This document shows, one piece after another, positions 2,798-7,216 of a stretch of DNA of 7,216 nt. The DNA is from an uncultured Holophagaceae bacterium. GTDB taxonomy: Bacteria > Acidobacteriota > Holophagae > Holophagales > Holophagaceae. Both the position numbers and the translations under genes were made by a program. Every line of letters starts with the position of its first letter. Positions within the stretch are counted from its first letter, which is position 1. The notes below the pieces were generated by a model, which did no database searches, was not told the DNA's origin, and worked only from the letters and a program-made list of their open reading frames with translations. The stretch lies in the NCBI GenBank assembly GCA_903927605.1, contig CAIYNT010000324.1, forward strand, positions 1 to 7,216. The letters run 5' to 3'.

Positions 2798-3232
2798 TTA
2801 CTTCTGGATGGTCATGATCTGGGGCTGCTGGGCGGACTGATCGTGCTCGGGGCCCGCGTAGACCTTGAGCTTGCGATACATCGCCCGGCCGAGGGGACCC
2901 TTGGGCAGCATGCCCTTGATGGCACTCTCGACGATGCGCTCGGGGAAGGTGGTCTTCATGACCTCGGCGCGGACTTCCTTCATGGAGCCGGGCTGGGTGG
3001 TCGTGCGGCGGTACATCTTCTGCACGCCTTTCTTGCCAGTCAGGACGGCCTTCTCGGCGTTGATGACGATGACGTGATCGCCGGTGTCGAGGAAGGGGGT
3101 CCAGGTCGGCTTGTTCTTGCCGGACAGGACGTCCGCTACGGCGGTGCTCAGGCGGCCGACGGGAATGCCGGTGGCATCCACCAGGAACCACTGGCGCTTC
3201 AAATCATTGGCTTTCGGGAAGTACGTGCTCAT
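2798..3232 (-). CDS. rplM: 50S ribosomal protein L13
   Basis: L13 is an early-assembling large-subunit protein that binds 23S rRNA. The 144-residue product (E. coli has 142) begins [20 protein letters not shown] and contains [16 protein letters not shown] (26-41), [13 protein letters not shown] (49-61), the [20 protein letters not shown] segment (106-125) and [11 protein letters not shown] (127-137), all typical of the family. The ATG at 3232 has GGAG 6 nt upstream. An in-frame extension to 3292 has no family support. It is the first gene of the rplM-rpsI unit, with its own promoter at 3302-3330. A repeat element has inserted only 40 bp behind that promoter. Confidence 0.98.
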
Positions 3233-3301
3233 GGCCTGCTCCGGAATCACGGTCGCGCTGCGAAGACACCACCCCAAGGGCAACGAATCCACAGAAGGGA
3301 A

Positions 3302-3330: not shown

Positions 3331-3369
3331 GCCGCGATTTCAGGTGGACGCCTGGGAGCGTGTTACTAA

Positions 3370-3638
3370 GAGCTTGTCCGTAAATTAGCCATGCCCGCGA
3401 AGGCGCTCAGCCGCGTGATCCAGCAAGGAAGAGGCCGCAGTGCGATGTGGTGGCATCGTGCAAGGCCGCTGACGTCGCTGGGCGCGCGGCTGAGCCCGTC
3501 CCTTCGGGCTGGGGCGGCGGGCGTCGCCTGGCTTTGTCAGGCGCCTTGCCCGTAGTCACCACTACGGTCTTCGACGCCTTCCGTGCCATGCTCGCCCGGC
3601 GCTCCCAGCGCGGGTGCGGCTAATTCATGGACAAGCTC
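3370..3638 (+). mobile_element. 269-bp MITE-like structured repeat, copy 1
   Basis: Terminal inverted repeats run GAGCTTGTCC(GT)AAATTAGCC at the left and the complement at the right (3618-3638), pairing at 19 of 21 positions. A direct TAA flanks both ends (3367-3369 and 3639-3641), as expected for a 3-bp target duplication inside CTAAG. These features fit a non-autonomous IS5-family (IS1031-like, TNA target) element; the family link is inference. The interior (3408-3522) closely matches copy 2 at 6835-7103 in reverse. Arms visible: CAGCCGCG (3408-3415) with CGCGGCTG (3485-3492); CCAGC (3420-3424) with GCTGG (3477-3481); GTGCGATG with CATCGTGC (3440-3461); CCGTAGT with ACTACGG (3550-3567). No conserved protein is encoded. 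Confidence 0.85.
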
Positions 3639-4705
3639 TAAGCCAGCCCCGCCAATTCCTGGGCGATGCGCGCGGCGGCCAGGCCATCCACCAGGGCCAT
3701 GCCGTCCTTGACCTGCTCCTGCCGGTTGTCCTGTCCTTCGGGGCCGAGCCACTGGGCCAGGGCGTCCCGCACGATCACGAGATCAGCCTCAGGCCCCACG
3801 CCCAGGTCGAAGCAGCCATTGGCCATGGCCAGATCGGACAGGATGGCGTGCTGCCGCTCGTTCTGGCCCCAGACCGCGGCGGGAATGCCCATGCAGAGGG
3901 ATTCGGCGAGGGTGACTCCGGCCGAGCACCAGATGGCATCAAAGCTCGGAATGCGGCGGGTGAGCTGCGGGACACCGTCCACGACGGTGCAGCCGGAGAA
4001 GGGCTCACCCTGGATCCCGTTGGGGGCGAGCAGGGTGCAGGCGCCGCGCCAGCGGTCCTCAGCAGCGAGGCGGGCGAGGGTGTCGAAGGCCTTCTGGGAC
4101 AGGTTGGGCCCGTCGCTGCCGCCGAAGGTGACGAGCAGCTTGTGGACCGCGAGAGGCTGGAGCGGCATCCGCTTGGGCCGCAGGTCCAGGGCGGTCCTGT
4201 CCACCACGATGAAACCCGATCCCCGCAGCACCCGGCAGGCGCCGGAGGTCGTTTCGAAGGGGCGCACCTTGCGGCCCTTCACCACCTTCATGGGATGGTC
4301 CGGCCAGCGCACGCCCTCCAGGAAGGGCTGGAAGAGCAGGTCCGCGGATTCGTGGGCATCCGTGTCGTCCTCCAGGATGGCCACCTTCAAGGGGCGCAGC
4401 GCCTGGAGGAAGGCGGCCGTGGCATCCCACTGATCCACCAGTACCACCGAGGCCCGGGCCTTGAGGTCCTCCGGGAGCGGCGCGTGGAGATCTTCCCCGA
4501 GGTAGTGGGCCTCGCAGGGCAGGGGCTGCTCCAGGAAGGGGTGGGTGCCACCGCCCACCCGCCGGGCCCGGTCATCGCCCGTGATGGCGATGCAGGCCTG
4601 CCCTCCCAGGGCGCGCCAGGACTCCTGCAGGGCGAGGGCCCGGGCCACATGGCCCAGCCCAAGGCGCAGATCAGCGTGGACACGGAGGATCAGCAGCGGG
4701 GACAT
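3638..4705 (-). CDS. PseG/SpsG-like nucleotide-sugar hydrolase or GT-B glycosyltransferase
   Basis: The 355-residue product looks like the PseG/SpsG group, GT-B-fold enzymes that remove UDP from 2,4-diacetamido-trideoxy sugars in pseudaminic-acid-type pathways or act as related glycosyltransferases. The N-terminal domain opens with LRVHADLRLGLGHVARALAL; His19 in GLGHVAR corresponds to the PseG active-site His. Further matches are the VVLVDQWD strand (87-94), the hinge FGGSD (194-198) and the nucleotide-binding SAGVTLAESLCMGIP (261-275). It is longer than Campylobacter PseG (about 274). The ATG at 4705 has no clear Shine-Dalgarno, but the first beta strand follows at once, so I keep this start. 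No other sugar-acid synthesis or flagellar glycosylation gene is in the window, so the substrate is open. The TAG stop is formed by two bases of the TAA duplication plus the first base of the inserted element. Confidence 0.7.
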   Translation of the reverse strand: MSPLLILRVHADLRLGLGHVARALALQESWRALGGQACIAITGDDRARRVGGGTHPFLEQPLPCEAHYLGEDLHAPLPEDLKARASVVLVDQWDATAAFLQALRPLKVAILEDDTDAHESADLLFQPFLEGVRWPDHPMKVVKGRKVRPFETTSGACRVLRGSGFIVVDRTALDLRPKRMPLQPLAVHKLLVTFGGSDGPNLSQKAFDTLARLAAEDRWRGACTLLAPNGIQGEPFSGCTVVDGVPQLTRRIPSFDAIWCSAGVTLAESLCMGIPAAVWGQNERQHAILSDLAMANGCFDLGVGPEADLVIVRDALAQWLGPEGQDNRQEQVKDGMALVDGLAAARIAQELAGLA

Positions 4706-4788
4706 GGTCCGGTGAGTCTAACCCTGCTTGCAGGGGATGGGGAAGGGGATAGCCGGGGCCTTGAGGCACGCCCGCTCGGGGAAGGGGT

Positions 4789-4882
4789 GGCCAACCTGGT
4801 TGTGATGCTCAGCCCCCCGGGTGCCCGGCAGTGACTGTGGGGGCCAACCTGATTGTGATGCTCAGCCCGCCGGGTGCCCGGC
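4789..4882. repeat. Two tandem 41-bp direct repeats, 53-bp period
   Basis: Positions 4789-4829 and 4842-4882 match at 39 of 41 positions by eye, separated by 12 bp. Each copy contains GTGATGCTCAGCCC and the near-palindrome CCGGGTGCCCGG; copy 1 also holds CAACCTGGTTG. They lie in the 224-bp gap between the carbonic anhydrase-like gene and the pseG-like gene, 84 bp before the latter's start. Two well-kept copies suggest a recent duplication, a pair of binding sites, or an interspersed repeat. I see no other gene in this gap and no convincing promoter. Confidence 0.85.
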
Positions 4883-5573: not shown

Positions 5574-5581
5574 CCTTGGAC

Positions 5582-6799
5582 ATGACCCGGCAGCTGATTC
5601 CCTCCCGTCGCGCCTTTCCCGCGGATGATCCCATCTTCGCCCTGAATGCCGAGGCCCTTGCCCGGCGGGCCGCGGGCGAGTCCATCCTCAATGCCACGGT
5701 GGGCGCCCTCCTGGACGACTCGGGCCAGCTGGTGGTGCTGGAGGCCGTGATGGACCTCTGGCGCGAATTGACGGCCCTGGAGATCGCTCCCTACGCGCCC
5801 ATCGCCGGGGATCCCCAGTTCCTCAAGGCGCTGGTGCGGCGGCACTGGCCCATGCTCACCACCGCGGGGGCCGCCTGTGCCACGCCGGGCGGGAGCGGCG
5901 CCCTGGCGGTGTCACTGAGGAACTTCCTCGAACCGGGACAGCGGGTGCTCACCACGGCGCCCTTCTGGGGACCTTACGCCACCCTCTCCGCCGAGAATGG
6001 CATGAGCCTAGCGACGGCGCCCTGGCCCGGAGCGGGTGAGCCCCTGGATACGAAGGCGTGGGAGGCGGCCCTGCGGGACTTGATGAGGGAGCAGGGCCGG
6101 GTGCTCCTGTGGCTCAACGATCCGTGCCATAACCCCACGGGCCGCAGTCTCTCCCCCGCTGACCGCGCAGCGCTGACCGGCCAGCTGCGCGGGATCGCAG
6201 CGCTCGGTCCCGTCACGCTGCTGCTGGATTTCGCCTACCTCGACTACACGCGGGAGCCTGGGGCCGTGGCCGCCGCCCTGGGCGACTACGCCGTCCTGGG
6301 TGCCGAGGGGCGCGTGCTGGTCGGAGCCTGCCTGTCGCTGTCCAAATCCATGACCCTCTACGGGGCGCGGTGCGGCGCCCTGGTCTTTCCCTGGTCCGTG
6401 GACCCGGCCCTGCAGGCGGCCCTGACGCAGTCCTGCCGGGGCACCTGGTCCAACTGCGCCAAGGCGCCCCAGGCCCTGCTGCTGAGGCTGGAGCAGGACG
6501 GAAAGGCCCAGGCACGGCTGGCGGCCGAGCAGCGCCACTGGTCCGATATCCTGGCAGCCCGGGCCATGGCGCTGGATGAGGCGCTGGCCTCCGAAGGCAT
6601 GAAACCAGTCCACTGGACCGGTGGCTTCTTTGTCTGTGTGCCCGTGGCCGATCCCGAGGCGACATGCCGCCGGATGAAAGCTGAGGGCGTCTTCACCGTG
6701 CCGCTCCCGGAAGGGCTGCGGGTGGGGCTCTGCGGCATGCGGGCGGCCGAGGCCCCGCGTCTCGTGCAGACCCTGCGTCGCGCCCTGACCGCTGGATGA
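5582..6799 (+). CDS. PLP-dependent class I aminotransferase (AspC/TyrB-like)
   Basis: The 405-residue product is a fold-type I aminotransferase that moves an amino group between an amino acid and a 2-oxo acid; it is cytoplasmic. Its motif layout follows the aspartate/aromatic aminotransferases: ATVGALLDDSG near the N-terminus, YAPIAGDPQF, TPGGSGAL (101-108, PLP phosphate), APFWGPY with Trp129 over the ring, CHNPTG with Asn184, DFAY with Asp217 and Tyr220, LSLSKSMTLYGARCG with the PLP lysine Lys255 and Arg263, and LRVGLCGM with the substrate-carboxylate Arg380. An Arg in SCRGTWSN (about 286) is at the place of the AspC side-chain-carboxylate Arg, so dicarboxylic substrates are possible, but specificity cannot be read safely. 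Start: ATG 5582 is preferred over TTG 5576; neither has a Shine-Dalgarno. It runs alone, divergent from the carbonic anhydrase-like gene. Confidence 0.88.
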   Translation: MTRQLIPSRRAFPADDPIFALNAEALARRAAGESILNATVGALLDDSGQLVVLEAVMDLWRELTALEIAPYAPIAGDPQFLKALVRRHWPMLTTAGAACATPGGSGALAVSLRNFLEPGQRVLTTAPFWGPYATLSAENGMSLATAPWPGAGEPLDTKAWEAALRDLMREQGRVLLWLNDPCHNPTGRSLSPADRAALTGQLRGIAALGPVTLLLDFAYLDYTREPGAVAAALGDYAVLGAEGRVLVGACLSLSKSMTLYGARCGALVFPWSVDPALQAALTQSCRGTWSNCAKAPQALLLRLEQDGKAQARLAAEQRHWSDILAARAMALDEALASEGMKPVHWTGGFFVCVPVADPEATCRRMKAEGVFTVPLPEGLRVGLCGMRAAEAPRLVQTLRRALTAG

Positions 6800-6808
6800 T
6801 TCCCCCGC

Positions 6809-6822
6809 CAACGCAGGCGTTG
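6809..6822 (+). other. Small hairpin after the aminotransferase stop
   Basis: CAACG and CGTTG form a 5-bp stem (6 bp if the loop is only AG) 10 bp past the stop codon. No T run follows, so it is at best a weak terminator. The large folded repeat starting at 6835 could block or end transcription instead. Confidence 0.3.
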
Positions 6823-6834
6823 TCGAGGATCTAA

Positions 6835-7103
6835 GAGCGTGTTTTAGAATTCGCACGGGCCGCGCTGGGAGCGTCGGGCGAGCCTGGCTAGGACAGGGCC
6901 CGCTGGCATGGTGGTTCCATGTTGAGGGCCCTGGACGACGCCATGCGAAGCCCGCCGCCCCAGCCCAGAGGGACGGGGGCCAGCCGCGCGCCCAGCGGCG
7001 TCACCGCGCTTGAACGATGTCACCGCATCGCCCTGCGCGCGCTTCCTTGCTGGATCACGCGGCTGGCCCCCGTCGTGGCTCGTGGGAATTCTAAAACACG
7101 CTC
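6835..7103 (-). mobile_element. 269-bp MITE-like structured repeat, copy 2
   Basis: The ends are perfect 18-bp inverted repeats, GAGCGTGTTTTAGAATTC at the left and its complement at 7086-7103, flanked by direct TAA at 6832-6834 and 7104-7106 in a CTAAG target. It has exactly the length of copy 1 at 3370-3638 and the reverse orientation. The core (6950-7065) matches copy 1 at about 86% by eye, including 24 identical bases at 7042-7065. The terminal repeats and the arm at 6894-6933 are different in sequence, but that arm still folds (CAGGGCCC with GGGCCCTG, then CATGG with CCATG). It lies 35 bp after the aminotransferase stop and 11 bp before the tRNA-Val promoter. No open frame is shared with copy 1. 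Confidence 0.85.
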
Positions 7104-7114
7104 TAAGGTCAGGC

Positions 7115-7153: not shown

Positions 7154-7216
7154 GGGCGTATAACTCAGCGGTAGAGTGCTACCTTCACACGGTAGAAGTC
7201 CCAGGTTCGAATCCTG
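7154..7216 (+). tRNA. tRNA-Val(CAC), 3' end cut by the window edge
   Basis: The cloverleaf can be laid out base by base. The acceptor 5' arm is GGGCGTA (7154-7160), followed by TA. The D arm is ACTC-AGCGGTA-GAGT (7163-7177). The anticodon arm is CTACC-TTCACAC-GGTAG (7179-7195), with anticodon CAC at 7186-7188 reading the Val codon GUG. The variable loop is AAGTC and the T arm CCAGG-TTCGAAT-CCTG. The window ends one base before the T stem closes, so the 3' acceptor strand is missing. The anticodon loop has U33 as expected. Confidence 0.93.

Follow-up and report, generated by a model that had tools for sequence, protein, structure and literature searches.

Prokaryotic MITEs are described in passages of PMC10969869 as elements of 50–500 bp, non-coding as a rule, with inverted ends, a target duplication and a strong predicted fold, which show a bias towards intergenic positions and are presumed to be mobilised in trans by IS transposases. 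The same passages of PMC10969869 give them usually one parent IS and an AT-rich composition, the latter typical rather than defining. The element described here resembles MITEs, as characterised there, in being short and non-coding, in its inverted ends, its target duplication and its strong fold, and in its intergenic bias. It differs from them in that the core is conserved and the ends are of many types (IS5-like and IS1182 among them), in that it is GC-rich, and in that relatives of it are found across the Acidobacteriota. MITEs are usually seen as evolutionary dead ends derived from a single parent transposon, whereas here the ends appear to change while the core stays.

REP, REPIN and BOX-type repeats are also palindromic, biased towards intergenic positions and built of modular hairpins. 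The present element shares the palindromic character and the intergenic bias, and its long copies carry a modular hairpin in the form of a 42-bp cassette, although it is much larger than those repeats, of near-fixed length, and has a DDE-type target duplication and IS-like ends. Among animals, the CORE-, V- and related SINEs have a central domain that is conserved and terminal parts that can be exchanged, drawn from differing autonomous partners. A conserved middle with exchangeable ends is likewise the pattern seen here, as an analogy only: SINEs are RNA-copied retroelements of eukaryotes, whereas the present element is a bacterial DNA element. The IS5- and IS1182-family ISs of the Holophagaceae also compare with it, several of them having terminal stretches of ~14–18 bp that match element end types and sharing TNA or CTAG/TA targets; these ISs differ in that they encode a transposase and lack the core. 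Our literature searches found no description of such an element family.

The window, that is, the whole 7,216-nt stretch of DNA analysed here, from an uncultured Holophagaceae bacterium, contains two copies of the element. We consider it probable that they belong to a family of non-autonomous, trans-mobilised, MITE-like DNA elements, with a structured core that takes up new ends of differing ISs. A wider reading, on which we find the balance even, is that of a transposase-agnostic mobile core spread over the whole phylum, in which one conserved three-armed DNA (or RNA) fold would persist by repeatedly exchanging its two ends for those of unrelated ISs, of IS5-like and IS1182 type alike, the fold and not the ends being the hereditary unit. 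If true, such a core would stand as the counterpart, in bacterial DNA, of the CORE-SINEs.

Two copies in the window and their insertion sites

Both copies are 269 nt long and they lie in opposite orientation, copy 1 at 3370–3638 on the plus strand and copy 2 at 6835–7103 on the minus strand. Just as a first-pass annotation of this DNA had it, each starts with GAGC and is flanked on each side by TAA (3367–3369 and 3639–3641 for copy 1, 6832–6834 and 7104–7106 for copy 2); each ends with GCTC, and both are visibly GC-rich. Without gaps, the two copies match in inverted orientation over at most 114 nt, at 80% identity, and the block of 24 identical bases that had been reported is present in columns 59–82 (CAGCCGCGTGATCCAGCAAGGAAG). 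After the common GAGC the end types differ. Copy 1 bears GAGCTTGTCCGTAAATTA as its left inverted end (3370–3387, plus strand), with the right inverted end at 3621–3638 (minus strand). In element orientation, copy 2 has GAGCGTGTTTTAGAATTC as its left end (7086–7103, minus strand) and its right end at 6835–6852 (plus strand); the closest core relative of this copy, L001, has GAGGGTGTCTGCAAATTC instead. The conserved core of copy 1, delimited by the alignment and the consensus fold, covers 3396–3612 on the plus strand and is made up of a long arm 1 (3399–3500, helices 3–7), a short central hairpin (3501–3507, helix 8) and a third arm (3508–3609, helices 9–14), all plus strand, the coordinates of the core and of arm 1 and the third arm being mapped by hand.

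The neighbours of copy 1 are two minus-strand frames, at 2798–3292 (presumably rplM) and at about 3638–4705, while copy 2 sits between a frame at 5576–6799, which we take to be aminotransferase-like, and a tRNA at 7154. In this aminotransferase–tRNA interval the element is absent from all 30 relatives fetched. The ancestral site is seen, almost letter for letter, in L164 (G031), which reads ...GATC TAA GGTCAGGCTTGG... with a single TAA at the place where the window has TAA, element and TAA, so the insertion of copy 2 is precise, with a 3-bp duplication. A duplication of this kind points to a DDE enzyme rather than a Y1 transposase. At the site of copy 1 the element is absent from 19 of 20 fetched relatives, and an identical element is present at the same site in G001, where the flank is 96% identical. 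The description of the element as an active MITE can therefore be kept in its MITE features (fixed length, inverted ends, a TNA/TA preference and the clean single-TAA empty site), and as to activity only in the sense of recent insertion, the sites being empty in the relatives just counted.

Three other features were noted. Two direct repeats of 44 bp, 93% alike and starting 53 bp apart (4786–4829 and 4839–4882), lie between two genes of the window. A short hairpin, CCCCGCCAACGCAGGCGTTGTCGAGG, at about 6803–6831, lies next to the place where copy 2 was inserted; hairpins like it occupy the same interval in L164, L144, L154 and L161 and are absent from most other relatives. Near the copy 1 site, upstream of the orthologue of window 3639–4705, genome G017 (L316) has a different palindrome of ~60 bp with GGAGCCTGTCC-type ends.

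Copy number, spread and target sites

The nucleotide search for further copies that had been proposed on the strength of the two window copies returned many. An exact 22-mer of the core is found in seven stretches of the genome collection, all of them Holophagaceae or Geothrix, and blastn gave 27, 15, 11 and 12 matches in four genomes and a match in 56 of the 77 Holophagaceae-family genomes. The cultured strain G. fuzhouensis SG12 is among the carriers. A covariance model, also suggested at that stage, was built from 116 copies; among 396 Acidobacteriota genomes it matches 70, of which 38 do not belong to those 77. Among the matches listed, which include mirror-strand hits, the distinct places number at least 21 in G002, at least 16 in G020 and at least 8 in G013. 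Many distant matches of the covariance model have near-equal scores on both strands, so the model in part rewards a shape that is generic. Of 20 far places that were fetched, 15 reach E 1e-3 with a profile of the core built on sequence only, five of these at 72–119 bits, and the other five (L297, L300, L303, L311, and L312) fall short of that value, the best reversed control standing at E 1.4. On these profile scores, homology beyond the Holophagaceae can be called firm for some lineages and is only suggested for others. Spread by plasmids or phages was considered and rejected, since no plasmid match was obtained with three elements as queries and no viral contig matched two exact patterns.

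From 143 catalogued copies, 125 with good ends and flanks were retained. Their terminal inverted repeats, as seen in MITEs, match at 15–18 of 18 end positions, which is also the rule by which this set was selected; the 18 other copies failed it, many of them being truncated. At least 114 of the 125 are 262–271 bp long, well within the short size of MITEs, and GC content was 0.58–0.72 in 20 relatives, away from the AT-richness typical of MITEs. The family has thus many copies, near-fixed length and inverted ends, the opposite of what the first-pass annotation had named as grounds for giving it up (no further copies, or copies that vary randomly in length and lack inverted ends). The same catalogue gave 117 copies of 255–290 bp, of which 116 were aligned, L101 being left out.

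Identical 3-bp flanks, which received a small bonus in the end-finding script, occur in 28 of the 125 copies with good ends, against a mean of 10.3 and a maximum of 23 when the flanks were paired by shuffling (1000 shuffles). Together with the empty site of copy 2, which is independent of that bonus, they give the target-site duplication known from MITEs. Preferences follow the type of end: copies with GAG-type ends favour 3-bp TNA duplications (identical 3-bp flanks in 23/73), and those with GGG-type ends favour TA within CTA/TAG (TA/TA in 20/34). A coding-like frame runs across the joined site in 31 of 96 copies versus 32 of 40 random nearby points.

The folded core

The folding energy is -176.7 kcal/mol for copy 1 and -185.3 kcal/mol for copy 2 (z -10.4 and -12.2), and of 200 dinucleotide shuffles of each none was as stable. 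The self-pairing arms that had been read from the two window copies alone (an outer stem, a long arm, a GCCC/GGGC-type hairpin and a third arm) are found again in the consensus fold of the 116 aligned copies, whose 85 pairs form a closing stem of 23 pairs, an arm 1 in which the internal loops are conserved, the short hairpin and the third arm. Two-sided changes are found in 78 of the 85 pairs. Pairing cells are paired in 94.0% of cases versus 74.8% when shuffled, and the covariation score is 0.487, compared to 0.152 for shuffled data and at most 0.095 with slid partners. The structure of the element is certainly conserved. So are some unpaired positions, namely AAGG and CAAG of the internal loops, which are invariant or nearly so.

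There is no protein and no transposase within the element. A 60-aa frame at 3407–3589 was taken up as a candidate coding sequence and rejected: no reading frame is open in all copies, and frames of at least 60 codons occur in 50–83 of the 116 copies per frame versus 49–64 when shuffled, so that some are slightly commoner than shuffled (maximum 83 vs. 64) and none is consistently open. A known RNA family was rejected as well, Rfam giving only the tRNA for the window at gathering scores and, with a limit of E 1, no match for any of five element loci.

The most recent changes were followed in 24 mutually nearest pairs of copies, with cores at least 93% alike. In these young pairs 97 of 3056 paired core positions have changed versus 90 of 2204 unpaired ones. 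Paired sites thus change about as often as unpaired sites, so resident copies seem to decay freely, with the pairing kept over longer times.

Seven copies are longer than 295 bp and have extra hairpins. In four long copies that belong to different subfamilies (L056, L183, L245, and L011), arm 1 carries at the same point, about nt 55, a hairpin cassette of 42 bp and of the type GTATCGCC..GGCGATAC. In L244, a 42-bp insert is located in the third arm.

Ends, putative insertion-sequence partners and rival readings

The alignments combine a conserved core with an outer ~15–18 bp of many types. IS ends were taken round transposase genes, independently of the elements, and 12 ISs were compared with the element ends. 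These 12 were hand-picked from 59 loci for clear GAG/GGG-like inverted ends around a transposase, leaving out further occurrences of an IS already chosen, loci whose ends were not clear and loci whose clear ends were of a different kind (e.g., L107, L109, or L116). Six of the 12 match element ends at both of their ends, in 14–16 of 16 positions (L076, L078, L079, L115, L125, and L089, whose right end runs past the end of its contig, its first five letters being supplied by us). The null, made of position-wise draws from the same ends, has its 95% point at 13, its 99% point at 14 and its maximum at 15; by that measure the matches of L076 and L115 are moderate (uncorrected single-end P of about 0.03 at three of the four ends of these two ISs), and those of the remaining six (L080, L082, L090, L092, L093, and L099) are not above it. 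L125 has an IS1182-family transposase (382.7 bits, cut-off 270), L076, L078, and L079 have IS5 transposases, and L089 and L115 have DUF4096 transposases, which we take as IS5-like. Among the matches listed there are also weaker ones, with two mismatches at both ends for L083 and two to four mismatches between the end type of copy 1 and the IS ends of L103, L102, and L094. GGAGCCTGTCC-type ends also bound other palindromes, of other sizes (e.g., L316).

The matching ISs are mostly in genomes other than that of the element. Six carriers (G002, G004, G009, G013, G015, and G023) have neither a PF01609 nor a PF13340 match, so in them the enzyme would be lost or would belong to a family outside the search with these two profiles. 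We also looked for, and rejected, an autonomous partner bearing ends of the copy 2 type within the same genomes: G002, G003, G009, G015, and G023 have GAGNGTGTNTTARAATTC nowhere but in inverted pairs of element size, G001 and G033 have single sites in addition, and G035 has no site.

An account in terms of ordinary MITE families would derive each end type once from its own IS, let the ends drift together with the IS ends by point mutation, and regard the core as old stuffer kept by descent. End types do cluster on a tree made from the core only, in which 16 end classes need 28 changes (minimum 15, shuffled 67.4; the classes were cut at 33% difference, and T12 and T14 mix sub-types, which inflates their change counts), and all IS5-like ends have a common GAG..TGT skeleton, which makes gradual drift an alternative to swapping. 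However, classes recur on separate core lineages: the GGGTCTGTTTTCAAA class occupies three lineages kept apart by well-supported branches, which implies at least three origins or losses, and the GGAGCCTGTCC class needs two changes when only well-supported branches are counted. Elements with the same ends on cores less than 72% alike agree up to nt 15, which is the stretch on which they were selected, and then lose identity at nt 16, with 0.07–0.55 at most positions of nt 16–26 (the second profile being blurred by register shifts). The core was found inside none of the 16 ISs examined, so there is no sign of an interior left from a parent IS and a decayed IS is unsupported, though size and ends agree with the definition of a MITE. 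The way in which sister ends differ speaks against this account too. Copy 2 and its nearest relative L001, with cores 93% alike, differ in five end pairs, all two-sided and none one-sided, and the pairs with cores 93–98% identical (copy 2/L001, L187/L188, L166/L171, and L061/L199) have five to six two-sided and zero to one one-sided end changes. We thus hold independent MITE families to be decidedly unlikely. Long imperfect palindromes are corrected by template switching, and such mutational pairing, in an inert fold-back sequence and with no selection, would account for the two-sided end changes as well. Over the 24 young pairs the end pairs show 37 two-sided and 31 one-sided changes versus 7 and 83 in the core (n=1528 core pair cells; Fisher 6.6e-11, with cells that are not independent); one-sided changes dominate in the core, so correction is not fast there. 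The internal-loop AAGG and CAAG, conserved and yet unpaired, speak against it too, and we regard this explanation as very unlikely.

It could also be that the core functions as a transcript and is under selection as RNA, with a role in the cell or in transposition, and that the IS ends are merely its carriers. The strong conservation of structure, with two-sided changes in nearly all pairs, would agree with this, as would the excess of G-U over A-C cells in the core (345 vs. 127 in the 116 rows), which is not seen in the end stem (71 vs. 91), and the two adjacent G-U pairs of arm 1 that are fixed in most copies. Against it, G-U and A-C are nearly equal (26 and 22) in 24 representatives once three G-U-rich pairs are removed, a test blurred by the decay of dead copies; for this reason, and in view of the fixed G-U sites, we do not take the equality as a pointer to selection on DNA. 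The orientation to neighbouring genes has no clear bias either (21 same-sense, 13 opposite), the Rfam search of five loci speaks the same way, and young copies decay equally at paired and unpaired sites, so that resident copies are not apparently kept for a host function. A mobile structured RNA is unlikely in our judgement; of the two readings left standing by the first-pass annotation, an active MITE and a mobile structured RNA, the MITE half is well supported, and the core itself may act as a DNA hairpin or as RNA. It appears that covariation alone is a risky basis for proposing a cellular RNA, resident copies seeming to decay while the lineage stays folded.

In the preferred reading, that of a structured core taking up the ends of differing ISs, the transposase of the IS with matching ends, mostly IS5-like and in one case IS1182, would move each end type in trans by cut-and-paste. 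Judged by what is established for ISs, the target duplication together with the IS-like ends suggests a DDE transposase acting in trans. A lineage could outlive the loss of one transposase by means of the ends of another, acquired at both ends together. The two-sided, block-wise nature of the end changes suggests that both ends may be renewed by fold-back copying of one from the other or, alternatively, by exchange with a short palindrome or a sister element that has the new ends; palindromes of this short kind, bounded by such ends, are indeed present (e.g., L316). Selection would act on source copies, i.e., on which copies propagate, and the folded core would then probably help propagation whichever transposase cuts. 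If true, the loss of any one transposase need not be the end of a non-autonomous element, which can switch to another partner; this would explain the carriers without an obvious matching enzyme and would turn the role of the folded core into a direct experimental question.

Two genomes are mentioned for the relation of element and transposase in them. G066, of the Holophagaceae family, has 54 DUF4096 transposase matches and no blastn copy of the element. In G067 (L101), an IS5-like element (1398–2897) and a 269-bp element (2900–3168) lie back to back with only TA between them, an arrangement that would be explained by insertion into a CTAG made by the other element.
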